From positions 248,001 to 312,000 of the forward strand of contig JAIUNL010000002.1 in the NCBI GenBank assembly GCA_020161835.1: a stretch of DNA of 64,000 bases, in the 5' to 3' direction. The stretch comes from Bacteroidota bacterium. Its GTDB lineage: Bacteria; Bacteroidota; JABWAT01. The translations under genes and the position numbers were made by a program. The notes under the pieces are model-generated. The model worked only from the letters and a program-made list of their open reading frames with translations. It made no database searches and was not told the DNA's origin. Below are positions 7,909 to 17,586 of this stretch, piece after piece (position 1 is the stretch's first letter; each line of letters starts with the position of its first letter).

Positions 7909-8368
7909 GTTTTTTCCTGTCAGAATTTAATAAGTTAATAAGCAGCCACCATCCGGTTATGAAACCGAATACCCCTCCGGTAAGTGCCCGAAAAAGTTCA
8001 GAAACCGGTTTTAATCCGGTTAAATTTAATCCAAAATCAAGTAACAAAATTCCAAAACTAATCCATACCCACCGAAAAGTTGGCCGGATTTTTAAATTTA
8101 AGAAACCCGTCAGGTTTCCTAAAGAAAATGCGAGATAAATTGCACTGCATCTTATACAAACCAGGATGGGTGCCCCATTCCACCACCAGGAAAGTTCGGG
8201 CGTCCGGTGGCAAACCGGATTGAGCAGCAGATTTACCATTTGAATGGCCCAATCAGGCAGAAATGGCATCCAAACAGGCGTCATCCAGATTATGATGTTC
8301 CAAAGAAGTCCCAGAATGAGCAGTAAGATTGCACCAACCTTTTCAAACGGAACTAAAGTTGATGCCAT
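7898..8368 (-). CDS. DUF2085 membrane protein
   Basis: This 156-residue protein has four or so hydrophobic segments. The central motif NPVCHRTPELSWWWNGAPILVCIRCSAIYLAFSLG matches the DUF2085 pattern CH(Q/R)xPERS...CxRCxxIYxG with its conserved Cys pairs. Its molecular function is not known. It is first in a two-gene leftward operon with the DUF4199-like gene (11-base overlap). Its start lies 52 bases from the start of the divergent PorV/PorQ-like gene, so the two promoters overlap. Confidence 0.75.
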   Translation of the reverse strand: MASTLVPFEKVGAILLLILGLLWNIIIWMTPVWMPFLPDWAIQMVNLLLNPVCHRTPELSWWWNGAPILVCIRCSAIYLAFSLGNLTGFLNLKIRPTFRWVWISFGILLLDFGLNLTGLKPVSELFRALTGGVFGFITGWWLLINLLNSDRKKHVQ

Positions 8369-8389
8369 GGAGTTATTTTTTTACCTTTA
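8359..8389 (+). promoter_or_regulatory. Predicted Bacteroidota-type promoter of the PorV/PorQ gene
   Basis: TTG at 8359-8361 is followed by a 20-base spacer and TACCTTTA at 8382-8389. This fits the -33/-7 consensus TTTG...TAnnTTTG known from Bacteroidota. The predicted transcript start lies about 25 bases before the ATG at 8421. The same 20-base spacing recurs at several other gene starts in this window. Confidence 0.5.
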
Positions 8390-8420
8390 CATTCTTTCCA
8401 AAAATAGCGATTTTGCTGGC

Positions 8421-9437
8421 ATGAAAAAATTTATACTCCCTTTTACTGTTGCCCTTTTAACAGGATTTACTTCCTTACAAGCTCAGGTCTTCGATAAATA
8501 TGCTGGTGAGTTTCTTGCCGGTGGCGTTGGAGCCCGATATCTTGGAATGGGAAATACTGCCGTTTCCTTTACCAATGACCCCTTTTCAGTGTATTGGAAC
8601 CCAGCCGGGCTCAGCAGAATTCCGTTTAGCGAAGTAGCTTTCATGCATCAGGAACGATTTGCCGGCATCGTTAAAATGGACTTTCTTTCTTACGTTCAGC
8701 CATTTAACGAAACGTCTACTGTTGGAATAGGTATCCTCCGCAATGGTGTTGATGATATTCCCGACACTCGTGAAGGTTGGAAAAACTGGGATAAAGTTTA
8801 CAACACACCGCCAAGTGGTTATGAACCCGGCTTTTTTAATGCAGCCGAATATGCAGTCTATGCGAGCTATGCCACAACTCAATGGTTCTCTTTCCCGGTC
8901 GGACTCAATGTAAAAGGTATTTACAGGTCTTATGGATCTGTTGCTTCCGCATGGGGAATTGGTGTTGATGCAGGAACTCAGGTCAATGGCATTTTTGGGG
9001 TTTCTGAATTGCAGGCAGGCTTTGTTGCAAGGGATCTGACTTCAACACTGATAACCTGGGATAACGGAACTACAGAATTGATTGCTCCTTCCCTTGAATC
9101 TGGACTCTCCTGGCAAACCGAAGCCTTGTGGGGTCAATTTATTTTTGCCGGCGGAATGATTAACAGGTTCGAAAACCGCCGTGAAACAGCTCAGTTTAAT
9201 TTTGGTGCAGTTTCAGGTGATCTGAAAGGCGGACTTGAATACAATTATAACGGCAAATTTGCCATCAGAAGCGGTATAAACGAACTGAAAAGACTCAATT
9301 TTGGTGCTGGATTTAAAATCCAATCTTTGTGGATTGATTATGCATTTGAATCCTTCAACGGACAAAATGACCTGGGAAACAGTCACCGCATCAGCGTTTC
9401 ACTCGGACTTGATAAATTGAGCAAACCCAGAGATTGA
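8421..9437 (+). CDS. PorV/PorQ family outer-membrane protein
   Basis: This 338-residue exported protein is predicted to form a beta-barrel. The ATG at 8421 gives a clean signal peptide (MKKFILPFTVALLTGFTSLQAQ), while a longer frame reaching back to 8244 would destroy it. The mature N-terminus has GEFLAGGVGARYLGMGNTAVSFTNDP and YWNPAGLSRIP, the signature of the PorV/PorQ (UPF0164-like) family. PorV acts with type IX secretion in Bacteroidota, but many relatives have no proven link to secretion. No other type IX secretion gene is in the window, so the role remains open. A strong hairpin terminator follows. Confidence 0.85.
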   Translation: MKKFILPFTVALLTGFTSLQAQVFDKYAGEFLAGGVGARYLGMGNTAVSFTNDPFSVYWNPAGLSRIPFSEVAFMHQERFAGIVKMDFLSYVQPFNETSTVGIGILRNGVDDIPDTREGWKNWDKVYNTPPSGYEPGFFNAAEYAVYASYATTQWFSFPVGLNVKGIYRSYGSVASAWGIGVDAGTQVNGIFGVSELQAGFVARDLTSTLITWDNGTTELIAPSLESGLSWQTEALWGQFIFAGGMINRFENRRETAQFNFGAVSGDLKGGLEYNYNGKFAIRSGINELKRLNFGAGFKIQSLWIDYAFESFNGQNDLGNSHRISVSLGLDKLSKPRD

Positions 9438-9783: not shown

Positions 9784-10473
9784 ATGCCTGAAAATATTTC
9801 CCCAAAAATGCTGATTGAAATCTGGAGTGACATCGTTTGTCCATTTTGCTACATCGGTAAACGTCGCCTTGAAAATGCGCTCGAGCTCTTTTCCCATCAG
9901 GACCGGATTGAAATAAACTGGAAAAGTTATCAGCTTTCGCCGGATTTAAAAACAAATCCGGAACAATCAATCAACCAGTTCCTTGCAGAACATAAACAAA
10001 TACCGGTTGAAGAAGCTGAGAAAATGAATGATTATGTTACTGAAATGGCTTCAGAAGTAGGATTAACATACCATTTCGAAAAAGCAGTTGTGGCAAACTC
10101 TTTCAATGCGCATCGGCTTATTCATTTGTCCAAAGAAATTGGAAAACAGCATGAAGCTGAAGAATTACTTTTCAGAAGTTACTTTACAGATGGGAAAAAC
10201 ATTGATGATACCCAAACACTTGTACAATTGGGCGTTGAACTTGGACTTGAAGCAGAAAGGGTGATATCGGTTCTGAATGGAACTGACTTTGCAGATGAAG
10301 TAAGAAAAGATGTTTATGATGCTTTTCAGGTTGGAGTTAAAGGTGTTCCATTTTTTGTCTTTGACAGGAAATACGGAATATCCGGTGCCCAGCCCGCTTC
10401 ACTTTTTACCCAGGTTCTCGAAAAATCCTTTTCAGAATGGAATCAAAATCCATTAAACCAAAAGACCGTCTGA
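9784..10473 (+). CDS. DsbA-family thiol oxidoreductase (FrnE-like)
   Basis: This protein of about 229 residues has a thioredoxin fold. The redox motif CPFC sits at the start of the domain in IEIWSDIVCPFCYIGKRRLE, and the cis-Pro region is GVKGVPFFVFDRKYGISGAQP, exactly as in the FrnE/DsbA-like polyketide-type oxidoreductases. There is no signal peptide, so it is cytoplasmic, unlike true DsbA. The ATG at 9784 is preferred; an upstream TTG at 9772 and an ATG at 9808 are alternatives. Its stop codon lies inside the terminator hairpin. Confidence 0.88.
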   Translation: MPENISPKMLIEIWSDIVCPFCYIGKRRLENALELFSHQDRIEINWKSYQLSPDLKTNPEQSINQFLAEHKQIPVEEAEKMNDYVTEMASEVGLTYHFEKAVVANSFNAHRLIHLSKEIGKQHEAEELLFRSYFTDGKNIDDTQTLVQLGVELGLEAERVISVLNGTDFADEVRKDVYDAFQVGVKGVPFFVFDRKYGISGAQPASLFTQVLEKSFSEWNQNPLNQKTV

Positions 10474-10490
10474 AGACGGTCTTTTGGTTT
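10455..10490 (+). terminator. Bidirectional terminator overlapping the DsbA-family stop codon
   Basis: AAACCAAAAGACCGTC and its perfect complement form a 16-bp stem with loop TGAA. The A- and T-rich ends let it work for both the rightward DsbA-like gene and the leftward cyclase gene that ends at 10497. The TGA stop codon forms the loop. Confidence 0.85.
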
Positions 10491-10496
10491 AAAAAC

Positions 10497-13079
10497 TTAT
10501 TTGTGTTTCATGATATAAACACCCGTCCAGTCGGCTCCCGGCGGATTTTCAATAAAATCATGGCAACGTTTGATGTAGGTTTTTGACGGACCATCGTTTG
10601 GTTCAATATCCAGAACCTGTTCAAACACATTAATTGCCTGATCAAATTGCTGGGCATAATACAACTTCAATCCTTCGTTATAGATGTGAACCACTTTTTC
10701 CATGTGGGTTAAATCTTCACCAATCATCCGGTCTGCAATCAATTCAAAAACGGTTACCGGCTTAGTTTTTCCCTTTACCTGCAGCAAATCAAGCTGACGG
10801 CAAAGAAACTCATCTTTTACTTTTTCATGGGTGAATTCAGAAATCATCACCAGCGTATCAAATTCCTTGTTGGCAGGCTCAAGACGGGCAGCAAGGTTAA
10901 CCGAGTCACCCATTACAGTGTAATTAAACCGGCTTGAAGATCCCATATTCCCTGCAACCACCTGCCCGGTGTTAACACCAAAGCGGGCAATCAATCTCGG
11001 GAATCCACGATCAACCCAGGATTGAGCCATAATTTTCAATTTCGCCTGTTGGGCCATTACCGCACGGCAACATAAAATTGCATGTTTTTCCTGAGGAATT
11101 GGTGCACCCCAAAATGCCATGATGGCATCACCAATATACTTATCGAGAGTTCCGCCAGCCTGCATAATGATATCCGTCATGGATCCGAGATATTCATTCA
11201 GCAAAACAACGAGTTCTTCAGGAGTCAGCATTTCAGATATTGTGGTGAACCCTGAAAGATCTGAGAACATGATGGTTAGTTCTACTTTTTCACCACCCAA
11301 CCTGACTGAATCAGGATTCTCAAGCATTTTATCAACCACTTCTTTATTCACATAGTGGCTGAAAATCCCTTTGATCACTTTTTTCTGCTTGCTTTCTGTA
11401 AGGTATTGGTACGCAATGGAACTGATGTATCCGAGAAAAACTGCAGACATCAGAGGAACAACTTTTACCATAATCAGGTGTTCATTAAACAGATACTGGG
11501 CAAGTCCGAGAATCAGCCATGAAACCAGAGCTACAAAAAGAATATTCCCGAATTCCAAAGTGGTTTCAGGTTCGAATTTAACCCGGTGCATCAGCCAGGC
11601 TATAATCGCCGACAGAATTGCCGCAGTCAGATAAGGGAGAGAAAAATTCACAAGAGGTATCAGATCAAATTGACCCGACCATGGCGGAAACAATAACATG
11701 GAGTCATAACCCAGAATAAGCACAATAATGATATATGCTGCCAGGTAAATGATTGAATAAACAAATGCAAAATTGATAAGGAAAAACAAGGCTGAAATGC
11801 GTGTTTTAATGTGCTTAATTGAGGATGTTATAACAAAAATGCCAAACGAGGCAACGAATAAAATCAGGAATAAAATCCAGAGAGGAAGAGGCGCAATATT
11901 GTTTCCATCAATTAAATTCTGAACGGCCGTGGCGTGGATTTCAACACCGTAAGTTAAATTGGTTTGCTTTGAATCCCCTTTTCTGAAAGGAATTGCAAGC
12001 ATATCTTTATCTTCAGGATTCGCAGAACCAACAAGAACTACTTTATCCTCAAACGTACCGTCATACCTCAGAGAAAGTGACTTCAGGTTTTCAACATCTT
12101 CATCAGTTGCACCTTCATATAAAACGGCTAATCTCTGAATTTTTTCATTGTCAAAATTATCTTCAGCCCATTGGGTATAAAGAGTTTCATCTTTTGCAAC
12201 AGAATCGGGTGTAATTCCCAAATCTTCAGCAAGTTGTTTCAGATTGGCAAGTTCAGGGTTTGTGACCAACGTACTGTCATCGAGTACCTTATCAAGTCCG
12301 ATATAGGTAAAGGTTTGGGCCGGACCATAATAATTCAATAAAACAGTGTATCCATCCCAATTGGCAGCGTGATAATTTCCGATTTCAATTTTTTCTTCAG
12401 TTTTCTTGATGATCAGCGGGTTGCCCTGACGGCCTGCAGCCTTATTATCAAGATACTGAACGATTTCAAATGCAAATGTTGGGAAAACCTGTCCGTTTGT
12501 AGCCGTGTGAGTAATGGCATACCTTCTGATGTTTTCATCACGATCTGAAGGTACATAAATCAGCCCCAGCTTTACTCCCACATTAATGTTGTAGAAAATA
12601 TTTCTGAGGTTAAGAGAGTCAGTACTTTTAACCTGGTAACGATCGCCGGAAACACTTTCAGTTTCGGTTCTGCCAGCCAGAATCACATTATCGTATTTCG
12701 TAAGAACGGCCTGCAGCAGAGAATCAGATTCCTGATTTTTATAATCAACACCATCAAACAGAATATCTATTCCTACCGCCGAAGCGCCAGCTTTATTCAT
12801 GTTTTCAATAAACCGTGCGTAATAACTTCTTGGGAACGGATAACTAGCCGGTAAATTATCGATGGCACCGTCATCAATACCAATAATGACAACTTTTGAT
12901 TTTTCACCAAAATTGGTCACTGCTCCACGTTTTTCGAAACGCTGATCAATTGATTTCGTTTCAATATTTTCAAAAAGGGTTGTAAACGTAACCAGGTAAG
13001 AAAGTAAAACAACACCGATACTGATTATCAGTGCCGTGAAGTAGATATTTTTGAAGATATTGAATTTAGCTTTTGCCAT
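10497..13079 (-). CDS. CHASE2-domain adenylate cyclase with TPR tail
   Basis: This 860-residue membrane protein is predicted to make cAMP in response to an extracytoplasmic signal. A first membrane helix (about 13-35) is followed by a CHASE2 sensor domain to about residue 395 (VVIIGIDDGAIDNLPASYPFPR, GASAVGIDILFDG). A block of further hydrophobic segments follows, to about 575, then a class III cyclase domain. Metal-binding aspartates lie in IMFSDLSGF and KYIGDAIMAFWGAP. The Lys and Asp of LDKYIGD and YTVMGDSVNLAARLE indicate ATP rather than GTP. The end (about 790-860) looks like a TPR pair. A GGAG site precedes the ATG. A hairpin terminator separates it from the FecR and barrel genes upstream. 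Confidence 0.93.
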   Translation of the reverse strand: MAKAKFNIFKNIYFTALIISIGVVLLSYLVTFTTLFENIETKSIDQRFEKRGAVTNFGEKSKVVIIGIDDGAIDNLPASYPFPRSYYARFIENMNKAGASAVGIDILFDGVDYKNQESDSLLQAVLTKYDNVILAGRTETESVSGDRYQVKSTDSLNLRNIFYNINVGVKLGLIYVPSDRDENIRRYAITHTATNGQVFPTFAFEIVQYLDNKAAGRQGNPLIIKKTEEKIEIGNYHAANWDGYTVLLNYYGPAQTFTYIGLDKVLDDSTLVTNPELANLKQLAEDLGITPDSVAKDETLYTQWAEDNFDNEKIQRLAVLYEGATDEDVENLKSLSLRYDGTFEDKVVLVGSANPEDKDMLAIPFRKGDSKQTNLTYGVEIHATAVQNLIDGNNIAPLPLWILFLILFVASFGIFVITSSIKHIKTRISALFFLINFAFVYSIIYLAAYIIIVLILGYDSMLLFPPWSGQFDLIPLVNFSLPYLTAAILSAIIAWLMHRVKFEPETTLEFGNILFVALVSWLILGLAQYLFNEHLIMVKVVPLMSAVFLGYISSIAYQYLTESKQKKVIKGIFSHYVNKEVVDKMLENPDSVRLGGEKVELTIMFSDLSGFTTISEMLTPEELVVLLNEYLGSMTDIIMQAGGTLDKYIGDAIMAFWGAPIPQEKHAILCCRAVMAQQAKLKIMAQSWVDRGFPRLIARFGVNTGQVVAGNMGSSSRFNYTVMGDSVNLAARLEPANKEFDTLVMISEFTHEKVKDEFLCRQLDLLQVKGKTKPVTVFELIADRMIGEDLTHMEKVVHIYNEGLKLYYAQQFDQAINVFEQVLDIEPNDGPSKTYIKRCHDFIENPPGADWTGVYIMKHK

Positions 13080-13119
13080 TTGAAACTCCGTTTATACTGG
13101 TAACCATAAAGGTACAAAC

Positions 13120-13148
13120 AAAAACGGACTCATATCGAGTCCGTTTTT
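13120..13148 (-). terminator. Hairpin terminator between the beta-barrel and cyclase genes
   Basis: AAAAACGGACTC and GAGTCCGTTTTT form a 12-bp stem with a 5-base loop and a T-run on the minus strand. It lies 20 bases after the beta-barrel stop codon. The cyclase is therefore transcribed by read-through or from its own promoter; a TACCTTTA box lies at 13107-13114, without a clear TTG partner. Confidence 0.75.
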
Positions 13149-13167
13149 ATTAAAGCTTAGCAGAAAA

Positions 13168-15666
13168 TTAAAAGACGTATTGCAATCTGAGCGTGAACAT
13201 GAGATCAGAGTCCTGACCCTCATTAAGAATGAAATTCACATCTGAGGTGGTAAAGAAATTACTGTAGAAATAATATTGGGCATTTCCACCAAAAATGTAC
13301 TGATTCAAATCACTAATTGTTGCATTAGCTCTGGCTTGAGCCCTTAGTTTATTATCAAAGAAACTTTTACCTAAACTACCCTCAATAATATTAAACGAAA
13401 CCTCAGTTTCTTTATCAGCGCCATAACCAGAAACGCCTTGAGTAGGTCCAACAATTGTAACTTCCCTATATGTAGAAGCAGAATTATTGTAGGATAAATT
13501 AGCTGAAAGATCATCCCCGAGAGTAGTGCCATAGGATAGAACTACCGATCTTATTGATTGATCTGTACTTGCCAACGCATTTTGACTCAAGTAAATGTTT
13601 TCATCCCGAAGGTCTTTTTTATCAGTCATTGAAAATGCTAACCCAACTGTATGATACCCTTTTAACCAACTAAACCCATAATTGGTACTAATCTGAAATG
13701 TATTTGAGGCATTATTTTGGGATGCATTTTCGGTCTCAGGGATTTCATTTAAACTTGTCAACCTAATATAATCAAATGACAATGAAGGAATGTTTGCACC
13801 CGGGAAGATAGCAACACCAGTTCGAATATTATTTCTGGTGGTTGTTCCATCAAATGTCTTTTTCTGACCGTTTACATCTAGTTCGAGATCTTTATTACCA
13901 TCAGTATTATCAAACATCAGGTCATAACCTGCAGTGAAAAATAATTTATTCTGGAAAAGTCTCAACCGATCATTAATTCGAAATCCTTGAATATCATTTT
14001 GGAAAAACGGCAAACCTTCAGATTTGTAAGTTGACCCGTTCCTTAAATATTCAGCTTTGAAATAATTATTCCAATAATTCAATTTCAACCCACCCATAAA
14101 TGCCATGTAATTCAGTATTTGATTGGGTTTTGATGGTGCACCAATACCGGCAGAAATTGGCAGAATCGAATTGATAAGATCGTATGAGGAACCCAGTGAG
14201 CTTTTGGCTTCTTTCTCAACTGTCTCATTCTTTGCCAGAATATCTGAATTGTTTACTGAAAATGCTGCATCTCCATATAACTCAAATCTGCCATTGTCGT
14301 ATCTCAATTGCATATCAGTAGACAAAACCAAATTGGCGATTGGAGCATCGCCGTATTTGTTTGTGGTTGTATCATCAATTGCTCTCAAGAAACCTAGCCC
14401 CCAATTAAATCCTTGCTTTTTTGAACCGAAGCTCAATTTTGCCGATAAAAGATCACGGTCATATGAGCCATTGGAAGACAATTTGCGCAGTGTCGTGGTA
14501 GCATCATTTTTTGTTATAACAATATATCCCTCACTGATTTTGGTTTCCACTGCAAGAGAATCCATTGTGGCAATTACGATTGGCATTCCATCAAATTTTG
14601 CATCAGTTGCACGCCTTAGGGTACCATACGCAACATCAAGATTGATATAATCAGTTTTGAGGTTAGCCTCGATACCACGCACCCGGCTTCCGTTCATCAT
14701 CAGTCTGCTAAACGCTGGGTAAGCATCACCCACAGTAAGATCAAGATATTCAGTACCAAGCTTTAAAGTATATCTGTCTGCTGTTTGCTTATCTTTACTT
14801 TCTTCAGATGTTTTGTATAAATTCACATTGTATGTCATCCAATGGATATTACCAGATGCAGAAGCATTCGCTCTGTTAACACCTTTCGTACGGAAGGATG
14901 TTTTTTCATACCTATATTCATCCCAGACATTTCCAGAAAGGGAATAGTTTTGTTCAGCTTCTTCTTCAGCTTTTGCCTCATCTTTAGACACAACACTTAC
15001 AGTCCAATTTAGTGGGCCAACTGTAGTACCATCTAACAATTTCGCTTCAAAACTCAAGGATTGCTTTCCCTTTGGAGGTGAAGCTGGCAGAAAATTTAAA
15101 CCATCAGCAGTGACAGAAGATTCTTTTGTAACGTCCTGCCCATTAATACTCAATTTAACAGAGTTCACATCGATCTGATCAGAAATGGTGTAATAGGAAA
15201 TCATAATCATGAAATCGTCAGGTGCCGATTTTGAACCATCTTCCCCCATCATCACGGTTATTGCATCTGTAAGACCTTTGGGGGAGATATTAAGGAATGC
15301 TGGATTTTGGCGATAGTTTTCGGATGGATAAGTTGCCTCATTTCCATCTTGGAGACTAGCAACGATATAATATTCAATCCTTGGTGGAACAGCGTAATCT
15401 CCGGTTATCAAATATTTCCAAATTCCCTTTTCAAAGCGCATTTCAGTTTCTAAATACTCATCATTTGGAAGACGATAACCGATAATTACCTTCCCAAAGG
15501 TAATAGTAGGGTTTGAAGGAGCAACAGTAATAGAAAAGTCTTTACCTTCACGTGGTTGAGAATCTGTACCGACAGTTAGGGTTCCGGTATTTTGTGCAAA
15601 GGAAAAGGAGGAAAGCAGGAGCAGAGAAAGGAGCAAGGAGGTGCGAATCAATTTAACAATCTTCAT
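13168..15666 (-). CDS. Exported protein with Ig-like N-terminus and predicted beta-barrel
   Basis: No known family is recognised with certainty. This 832-residue protein has a signal peptide (MKIVKLIRTSLLLSLLLLSSFSFAQ). Two Ig-like beta domains follow to about residue 230 (SPKGLTDAITVMMGEDG, VNSVKLSINGQDVT), then an acidic linker (KDEAKAEEEAEQNYS). The remaining 590 residues or so are alternating-hydrophobic strands ending in LMFTLRLQYVF. The C-terminal Phe and strand pattern indicate an outer-membrane barrel. The segment LTVGDAYPAFSRLMMNGSR recalls usher or SprA-like barrels, but the resemblance is weak. It follows the FecR gene and probably shares its transcript. Confidence 0.7.
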   Translation of the reverse strand: MKIVKLIRTSLLLSLLLLSSFSFAQNTGTLTVGTDSQPREGKDFSITVAPSNPTITFGKVIIGYRLPNDEYLETEMRFEKGIWKYLITGDYAVPPRIEYYIVASLQDGNEATYPSENYRQNPAFLNISPKGLTDAITVMMGEDGSKSAPDDFMIMISYYTISDQIDVNSVKLSINGQDVTKESSVTADGLNFLPASPPKGKQSLSFEAKLLDGTTVGPLNWTVSVVSKDEAKAEEEAEQNYSLSGNVWDEYRYEKTSFRTKGVNRANASASGNIHWMTYNVNLYKTSEESKDKQTADRYTLKLGTEYLDLTVGDAYPAFSRLMMNGSRVRGIEANLKTDYINLDVAYGTLRRATDAKFDGMPIVIATMDSLAVETKISEGYIVITKNDATTTLRKLSSNGSYDRDLLSAKLSFGSKKQGFNWGLGFLRAIDDTTTNKYGDAPIANLVLSTDMQLRYDNGRFELYGDAAFSVNNSDILAKNETVEKEAKSSLGSSYDLINSILPISAGIGAPSKPNQILNYMAFMGGLKLNYWNNYFKAEYLRNGSTYKSEGLPFFQNDIQGFRINDRLRLFQNKLFFTAGYDLMFDNTDGNKDLELDVNGQKKTFDGTTTRNNIRTGVAIFPGANIPSLSFDYIRLTSLNEIPETENASQNNASNTFQISTNYGFSWLKGYHTVGLAFSMTDKKDLRDENIYLSQNALASTDQSIRSVVLSYGTTLGDDLSANLSYNNSASTYREVTIVGPTQGVSGYGADKETEVSFNIIEGSLGKSFFDNKLRAQARANATISDLNQYIFGGNAQYYFYSNFFTTSDVNFILNEGQDSDLMFTLRLQYVF

Positions 15667-15757
15667 AAAGTCATCCCTCGTTCTTTTATAAAAAAAAATG
15701 AACCAGGACGAATTTTCGCCCTGGTTTGTATCAAAATCAACTTAATTCAGTTCAATC

Positions 15758-16456
15758 TTATTCTGAATATTCAACTTCCAGTGTTTTGGTAGTTCCATCA
15801 GGCATCTGAACTTCAATGGTCATTTTTTTCTTTGTACCAGGACCATCGGTATTCATTCCGTTTAGCTGATTGGTGTCATCAGATGACTGATTGCGTGACT
15901 GAAGATTTCCTGTCTTTTTGTCAAGTTCACCAGTCTGGCCTGAACCAACTTTAACTTTTTCGCCATTGGCTTTATTTTCAAGTTCAGCTTCGCCATCATT
16001 GATCAGCAGTTTATCTGCATCATCATTGGTTGAATATCCGCCATCTGTACCGCGGATAGAAGCCACCGATGTTGGTGAACTGAAGCTGAAATTTTCTTCT
16101 TTACGTTTTCTGACGTCAAAGCCAATCTGACCTACATCAATCTGTACATTTTTATTGATTTTGGTTCCAGAACGGTCGCTGTAAACAACCAGTTCGCTGT
16201 TTGGACGAACACGAAGAATGGATCCATCAAGGAACTTCACTACTGCAGATGCTTTTTCACCTGTTTTGATGTTATCGCCATTTGTGAGTTTGTCTGCCCG
16301 TTTGGCATCCTTCCAGGTTCCTTTTTCGGGTTTAACTTTTACTTCGTTATAAACACGGGTTATCACGGCTACATCTTCTGCGGCAAACATAAAGAATCCG
16401 CTTGTTACAAATGCGACTGCGAGTCCGCCAATGATCAGTATTCCAGTTTTTTTCAT
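15758..16456 (-). CDS. FecR-domain protein, membrane-anchored or exported
   Basis: This 232-residue protein starts with an N-terminal signal or anchor (MKKTGILIIGGLAVAFVTSGFFMFA). A FecR domain spans about residues 40-150: NGDNIKTGEKASAVVKFLDGSILRVRPNSELVVYSD, then VDVGQIGFDVRK and SPTSVASIRGTDGGYS. Such domains occur in FecR anti-sigma regulators but also in stand-alone periplasmic proteins that sit next to CHASE2 cyclases. There is no partner sigma factor here, so the second type fits better. The C-terminal part is hydrophilic (QSRNQSSDDTNQLNG). GGAG precedes the ATG. It is second in the cassette. Confidence 0.85.
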   Translation of the reverse strand: MKKTGILIIGGLAVAFVTSGFFMFAAEDVAVITRVYNEVKVKPEKGTWKDAKRADKLTNGDNIKTGEKASAVVKFLDGSILRVRPNSELVVYSDRSGTKINKNVQIDVGQIGFDVRKRKEENFSFSSPTSVASIRGTDGGYSTNDDADKLLINDGEAELENKANGEKVKVGSGQTGELDKKTGNLQSRNQSSDDTNQLNGMNTDGPGTKKKMTIEVQMPDGTTKTLEVEYSE

Positions 16457-16473
16457 ATTGCTGACTCCACTTC

Positions 16474-17586
16474 TTATTTTACATCAAATGATTCAAGGTT
16501 GGCATCGCCTGTTTGCAATTTTTGCAAAATGATAGCCAGTTCCTGGAAGGTGACCGATTTTCCGTCGATCATGATAGTACCCTTGACTTTTCCACTCTTG
16601 ATTTGCTCAAAAATCGCAGCGTAATCATCACCAAAAATGGCTTTTAATTGATTGATGATGTTATTTCCTGCAACTTCTGAAGCGGATTTTGCTTGTGGGA
16701 TTGTAAACCAAAAAGGTGTTGCCCAGTTTTCTTCAGGCTTTGAAGAACCCAAAGAATTCACTCGTGAAGAAACCAGTACGGCGTAAACCTTACCTGCCTG
16801 CAGATCTGAATTTGGATATCTTACAAATTTGTTTTTTGTGATGTCAGAGGCCTGTGGTGTTTTGGAAAGTAAATCGCCCATTGTTTTATCAACTGTTGGG
16901 TCAACAACAACAATTCTCCATTCAAATTCAGGAGCATCACCACTCCAGGAAATGGCAGGTTTTGCATCAAATATTTCACCGGGTTCTTCATCAAGAAAGG
17001 TAGTGCCAGGGCCAATCAGAGAAACATAACCAGAAGGATTACTTAAAATCATCTCGTCAGATTGAGTATTTCCCAACACAGTAAAGAGGAATTTATATTC
17101 TCCAGCAGGAATTGGTGCCTGCGGGTTAATGTCAGTAATATCCTTTGATCCACCTAGAAGGGCGGAAACGACATCATCCATATTGATATCACCACCCTTA
17201 ACTTTAAATCCGAAAACGCCATCAGATTTCATAGCATTAACATTAGTGAGCACGATTGGAAATCCCTTTTTAACTGTAACCGGTTTGTTGTTAAACAAGG
17301 TAAGTCCAAGTGATTTAGTGTTGTATTGAACTTCAAATAAAATTTCACCAACCGGGATTGTATAGTCTTCGCCTGAATTTTCAAGGGTCATTCTCAACAT
17401 CATTCTTGAGGTTCCACCCGTTGATCTGGGATCAAACTTCATCAGATCACTAAAACGGATTTTATCCATTGCAGGTGATGTGACCACAATACTGTGCGTT
17501 ATTCCCTGTTGTGCCAGGGCAAAATTGGCAATCATCAGAAAGGGAAGGGCAACTCCCAGTCTCCTGATTAGTAATTTAGAAATCAT
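16474..17586 (-). CDS. Exported protein of unknown function, first gene of the FecR/CHASE2 cassette
   Basis: The family is not recognised. This 370-residue protein has a signal peptide (MISKLLIRRLGVALPFLMIANFALAQ). The mature part is beta-rich. Residues 190-290 (PAISWSGDAPEFEWRIVVVDP, LQAGKVYAVLVSSRV, WATPFWFTIPQ) look like an Ig/Fn3-type domain of the kind that binds cell-envelope partners. The C-terminal 70 residues are more helical (NNIINQLKAIFGDDYAAIFEQI). It has a very strong AAGGAG site and an 18-base gap to fecR, so it leads the operon. Its place next to FecR and CHASE2 genes suggests an envelope-sensing role (inference). Confidence 0.7.
   Translation of the reverse strand: MISKLLIRRLGVALPFLMIANFALAQQGITHSIVVTSPAMDKIRFSDLMKFDPRSTGGTSRMMLRMTLENSGEDYTIPVGEILFEVQYNTKSLGLTLFNNKPVTVKKGFPIVLTNVNAMKSDGVFGFKVKGGDINMDDVVSALLGGSKDITDINPQAPIPAGEYKFLFTVLGNTQSDEMILSNPSGYVSLIGPGTTFLDEEPGEIFDAKPAISWSGDAPEFEWRIVVVDPTVDKTMGDLLSKTPQASDITKNKFVRYPNSDLQAGKVYAVLVSSRVNSLGSSKPEENWATPFWFTIPQAKSASEVAGNNIINQLKAIFGDDYAAIFEQIKSGKVKGTIMIDGKSVTFQELAIILQKLQTGDANLESFDVK

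Follow-up and report, generated by a model that had tools for sequence, protein, structure and literature searches.

A four-gene cassette encoding an exported leader protein, a FecR-domain protein, a predicted outer-membrane barrel, and a CHASE2 adenylate cyclase recurs across the Bacteroidota, and we consider it probable that the four products form a trans-envelope unit in which a leader/barrel platform would signal through FecR and CHASE2 to cAMP. Coupling of the four parts is well supported; the signal, its direction, and the contacts between the proteins are what we infer. The window, meaning the whole 64,000-nucleotide stretch of DNA that was analysed, carries the four ORFs on the minus strand, exactly matching the four consecutive leftward genes described in a first-pass annotation made from the sequence alone: the leader gene (16474..17586), the FecR-protein gene (15758..16456), the barrel gene (13168..15666), and the cyclase gene (10497..13079). 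The intergenic gaps are 17 bp (leader-FecR), 91 bp (FecR-barrel), and 88 bp (barrel-cyclase), and signal-peptide-like N-termini are found on the leader, FecR, and barrel proteins. A palindrome with an 18-bp stem (10453..10492, no strand) lies between the convergent cyclase and DsbA genes and is probably a shared terminator.

The first-pass annotation had made its reading depend on whether the four genes stay linked outside this strain, and the linkage held: the order leader-FecR-barrel-CHASE2 cyclase was observed in 57 loci from 11 Bacteroidota families (f1, f4, f7, f11, f16, f20, f28, f32, f36, f41, and f50 in the cyclase tree). A search for relatives combined with 20-kb neighbourhoods yielded 15 same-order loci in six families, and a survey of 100 CHASE2 places in the phylum contributed the other 42, a rate of 42% that is biased, as we picked these places mostly among the highest scores. 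Median gaps within the cassette were 8, 58, and 6 bp, the barrel-cyclase value of 6 bp being taken over 56 loci. Across 296 genomes, 64 of 73 full-length barrels lay directly upstream of a CHASE2 cyclase, and every genome with a full-length barrel had a CHASE2 gene (73/73 versus 110/296 overall; log10 p -41, a value that counts related genomes separately and is uncorrected for kinship). On the tree, the cassette cyclases formed essentially one clade (4 label changes versus 35 when shuffled). The flanks varied: genes homologous to OAD-beta and mutS of the window were near 4/57 cassettes, all of them in the window's own family, and a PorV-like gene, which in the window lies at 8244-9437 (UPF0164, weak match), was near the cassette in 12/57 loci. 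At L070 we saw FecR and the cyclase with a masked stretch upstream, and L129 was cut by a contig end. Together, these observations confirm that the four-gene linkage exceeds chance and is not an accident of one strain. None of the papers searched was found to describe the four-gene cassette.

A conserved operon by itself could mean shared regulation, and operon structure alone would produce the pattern above if the four genes were merely expressed together for envelope purposes with no signalling path from barrel to cyclase. We judge this quite improbable. The nine barrels that were not directly upstream of a cyclase (in f5, f26, f49, and f36) came from genomes that had split the operon but retained all four parts, extending the co-retention to further families. 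In these genomes the leader and FecR genes were usually still adjacent; in the f36 case, leader, FecR, and barrel remained together and the cyclase stood alone elsewhere. The barrel was undetected in two further f26 genomes, G236 and G287, both of which are fragmented. Co-retention after the split speaks against co-regulation alone, as does the sharing of domains between the parts: the FecR proteins of L102, L118, and L123 contain one or more inserted copies homologous to the Ig-type domain of the barrel protein, and in the rhizobial protein NsrA (see below) FecR and barrel are fused.

The 860-aa cyclase has a TM segment, a periplasmic CHASE2 domain, further TMs, a class III cyclase domain, and a TPR-like end. 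Pfam detected CHASE2 (2.5e-40), Guanylate_cyc (1.2e-23), and a weak TPR match, which bears out its first labelling as a CHASE2 adenylate cyclase. In class III cyclases, particular positions bind the catalytic metal, specify adenine, or stabilise the transition state, and the window protein carries residues of all three kinds; D607, K647, D651, D725, N728, and R732 were invariant across the cyclase family (A4). We take K647 and D725 to be the adenine-type pair and infer cAMP as the product. Nine CRP-type cNMP-binding matches occur in the genome; genes of this type are common in general and unlinked to the cassette. Within CHASE2, the motif LDDxxxxTxxE (D267, D268, T273, E276; 12252..12284, minus strand) is a candidate partner-contact site, present in 52/57 full cassettes versus 9/55 other CHASE2 cyclases. 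Eight of those nine were cassette-clade cyclases from split-operon genomes, and we rejected the motif as a marker found only with linked operons: it tracks the cassette-type cyclase clade. One protein elsewhere (L054:7555-9783) had part of a CHASE2 domain together with a domain of the sigma-54 activator type.

The 232-aa FecR protein, expected to be periplasmic, matched FecR PF04773 at residues 61-153 (E 2.8e-13; 15998..16276, minus strand), in agreement with the original call. This domain is the one feature that the window has in common with canonical FecI-FecR-FecA regulation by an ECF sigma factor, a reading to which we give next to no credence. The Fec system has a sigma-factor output, an anti-sigma domain, and a TonB receptor, and none of the three was found in or near the cassette. 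Pfam searches for the anti-sigma domain DUF4880 and for FecR_C in the window protein found both absent, whereas both are carried by the genome's canonical FecR, part of a separate canonical set of sigma factor, FecR, and TonB receptor (L167:5352-9421). On the features tested (anti-sigma domain, FecR_C, sigma factor, and TonB receptor), a canonical Fec system is refuted.

The 832-aa barrel protein matched nothing in a Pfam scan. Its N-terminal domain matched a peptidylarginine deiminase of solved structure (E 4e-6) in the C-terminal region of the latter, which we take to be an Ig-fold domain, and this match supports the Ig half of the earlier Ig-plus-barrel description. The barrel half has sequence signs behind it: a C-terminal Phe in 38/57 members of the barrel family (A7), OMP_b-brl matches in 2 of the 57, and strand alternation in the barrel part (z 4.5). 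The prediction of an outer-membrane barrel is supported by these signs only. The 370-aa leader, recognised from its ORF, signal-peptide-like N-terminus, and profile homology, was assigned to no family by Pfam, and profile-profile comparison showed it to be homologous to leaders from other families (hhalign 99.6%). It had been annotated as an exported Ig-like protein; the Ig-like part is weak, with Ig_Rha78A_N matching 4/42 members and a best value of 0.0015. AlphaFold models built from three sequences were too poor to use for either protein (mean pLDDT 31 for the barrel and 55 for the leader).

The first-pass annotation had considered these two proteins not to be part of any nameable system, and here we depart from it: far from being unrelated orphans, leader and barrel belong to a pair that recurs. 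Short paralogues of the barrel (549-745 aa, a fusion excepted) matched the barrels of the cassette mostly from position ~245 of the profile onward. Among 24 paralogue loci, chosen from barrel hits and blind to their neighbours, an exported protein bearing a leader-type domain lay beside the short barrel in 16 and was fused to it in one more (L183), giving 17/24 (L049, L052, L170-L172, L174-L176, L179, and L182-L189); the leader and barrel profiles used were built from cassette members and one lone full-length barrel, L037. By homology and gene adjacency, the short barrel and leader-type protein are a recurring, predicted two-gene surface system that has no Pfam name. The leader-type domain in the paralogue loci ends near profile position 295 of 368, and some of the partners are encoded by frames that stay open for several thousand residues, such that the leader profile up to ~295 represents a domain common to giant exported proteins and the last ~70 residues are a cassette-specific C-terminus, probably helical. 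The same comparison marks the N-terminal region of the barrel (residues ~26-236, boundary approximate; 14959..15591, minus strand) as cassette-specific, since cassette barrels have it and short paralogues largely do not. These two segments are natural candidates for contacts with FecR.

The pairing with giant exported proteins also favours a different view of the cassette, in which the task of barrel and leader is to export or anchor a surface layer and FecR-CHASE2 reports on export or assembly, an internal quality control with no environmental ligand. A terminator-like hairpin with a T-run between the FecR and barrel genes (15701..15726, minus strand) points the same way: it is probably an internal attenuator, and leader and FecR would be made in larger amounts than barrel and cyclase. 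The hairpin was kept, with changed stem sequence, in 4/4 genomes of the window's family and was found at 10/57 loci overall. We nevertheless regard such an assembly monitor as unlikely. The cassette encodes no client protein, its flanks differ among families, and what is sensed in the characterised precedent is an external protein (PMC7529298).

That precedent comes from Sinorhizobium meliloti pSymB, where we found a 1219-aa ORF (FecR 2.3e-15, TPRs, and a C-terminal barrel-like part ending in VRF) overlapping the beginning of the gene for a CHASE2 cyclase; we take the two to be nsrA and cyaK (Garnerone et al. 2018). NsrA and the CHASE2 cyclases are reported to be needed for signal perception, which supplies cAMP to Clr (PMC7529298, PMC13001267). 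Rhizobia use this sensor, in which CyaD1/D2 and Clr accompany NsrA-CyaK, to detect their host plant. Like the window, NsrA-CyaK joins a FecR domain and a predicted barrel to an immediately downstream, same-strand CHASE2 class III cyclase, and the window FecR profile matched the FecR part of NsrA at 97.8%. There are clear differences: NsrA holds FecR, TPR, and barrel in one protein where the window has separate genes, the NsrA TPR array is absent from the window FecR protein, and NsrA-CyaK has no leader. Comparison of the two barrels detected no homology (hhalign prob 0.1), and we therefore use NsrA as a precedent for architecture only, claiming likeness of function and not membership. With this reservation, the cassette looks like a split-gene counterpart of the rhizobial host-plant sensor, resembling NsrA-CyaK in architecture and probable function.

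The nsrA-cyaK loci also bear on a fourth view, in which the cassette is a Pycsar-type cyclic-nucleotide defence module with the barrel as phage sensor. A PycTM-like two-TM effector gene is divergent to nsrA-cyaK both in S. meliloti (L060:6610-7218, 2.7e-15) and in Rhizobium sp. BG4 (L190:3349-3888, 2.5e-13), and it raises the question of whether the cAMP made there also serves a Pycsar-like effector. For the window, a Pycsar role is very improbable: its cyclase matched PycC models only across the general class III cyclase domain and has the adenine-type K647/D725 pair, scans of the remaining cassette proteins and of two nearby genes gave no match, and inheritance largely follows families, unlike that of defence islands. 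We rejected the Pycsar reading for the window, having seen no effector match among the scanned proteins.

We favour the sensor model, in which the barrel and the exported leader would form an outer-membrane platform with the leader C-terminus and the N-terminal Ig-type region of the barrel facing the periplasm. A change in this platform, whether ligand binding, surface contact, or assembly state, would be detected in the periplasm by the FecR protein and relayed to CHASE2 in the inner-membrane cyclase, and the resulting cAMP would act on CRP-type regulators. The model draws on the conserved order, co-retention, single cyclase clade, invariant catalytic residues, and nine CRP-type matches, as well as on the FecR-barrel fusion beside CyaK, the Ig inserts in FecR proteins, and the leader-barrel pairing. 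Passage of a surface or barrel state through FecR to CHASE2 and into cAMP had already been suggested in the first-pass annotation; the linkage supports this, and the direction is suggested by analogy with NsrA-CyaK. It is also possible, though we advance it tentatively, that a Bacteroidota outer-membrane anchoring pair, made up of a barrel and of the leader domain that stands at the head of giant exported proteins in other loci, was turned into a sensor by losing its giant payload, gaining periplasmic contact domains, and becoming wired to FecR-CHASE2, such that occupancy of a surface anchor or the load on it would be converted to cAMP. Such a sensor would have arisen independently of NsrA and with a different barrel.

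As late as 2016, what CHASE2 domains sense was described as unknown (PMC5192318), and NsrA was the only experimentally studied outer-membrane input that we found in the papers searched. If the sensor model is true, the persistence of a split version throughout a phylum would show FecR and CHASE2 to be a relay of general use, able to serve different outer-membrane parts. The separation of FecR, barrel, and leader into three proteins makes each contact individually testable, and the cassette gives a place to two protein families that have no Pfam entry.

FecR and CHASE2 genes had been noted as known neighbours in other phyla, which is documented (PMC9239204, PMC5192318) and which we saw directly in S. 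meliloti. In Campylobacterota, a CHASE2 adenylate cyclase clusters with a FecR-domain outer-membrane protein; this cluster adds a cAMP phosphodiesterase and a TPR protein, and barrel and leader families of the window type are not reported there (PMC9239204). In the Burkholderia BiofilmReg operon, a FecR-domain protein adjoins a CHASE2 sensor (PMC5192318), but the protein is of LysM-FecR type, there is no barrel, and the output is a histidine kinase and response regulator where the window has a cyclase. Plasmid cyclase matches in Legionella, Ruegeria, Azospirillum, and Leptospira had no annotated or Pfam-detected FecR neighbour. Finally, a second Bacteroidota cassette (L068, L107, and L132) has, like the window, a FecR-like protein, here with TPR and encoded immediately upstream of the CHASE2 cyclase (the FecR call in L107 and L132 comes from our own profile, Pfam giving TPR only), and in it an NHL/TPR giant of 1500-1700 aa replaces both barrel and leader.
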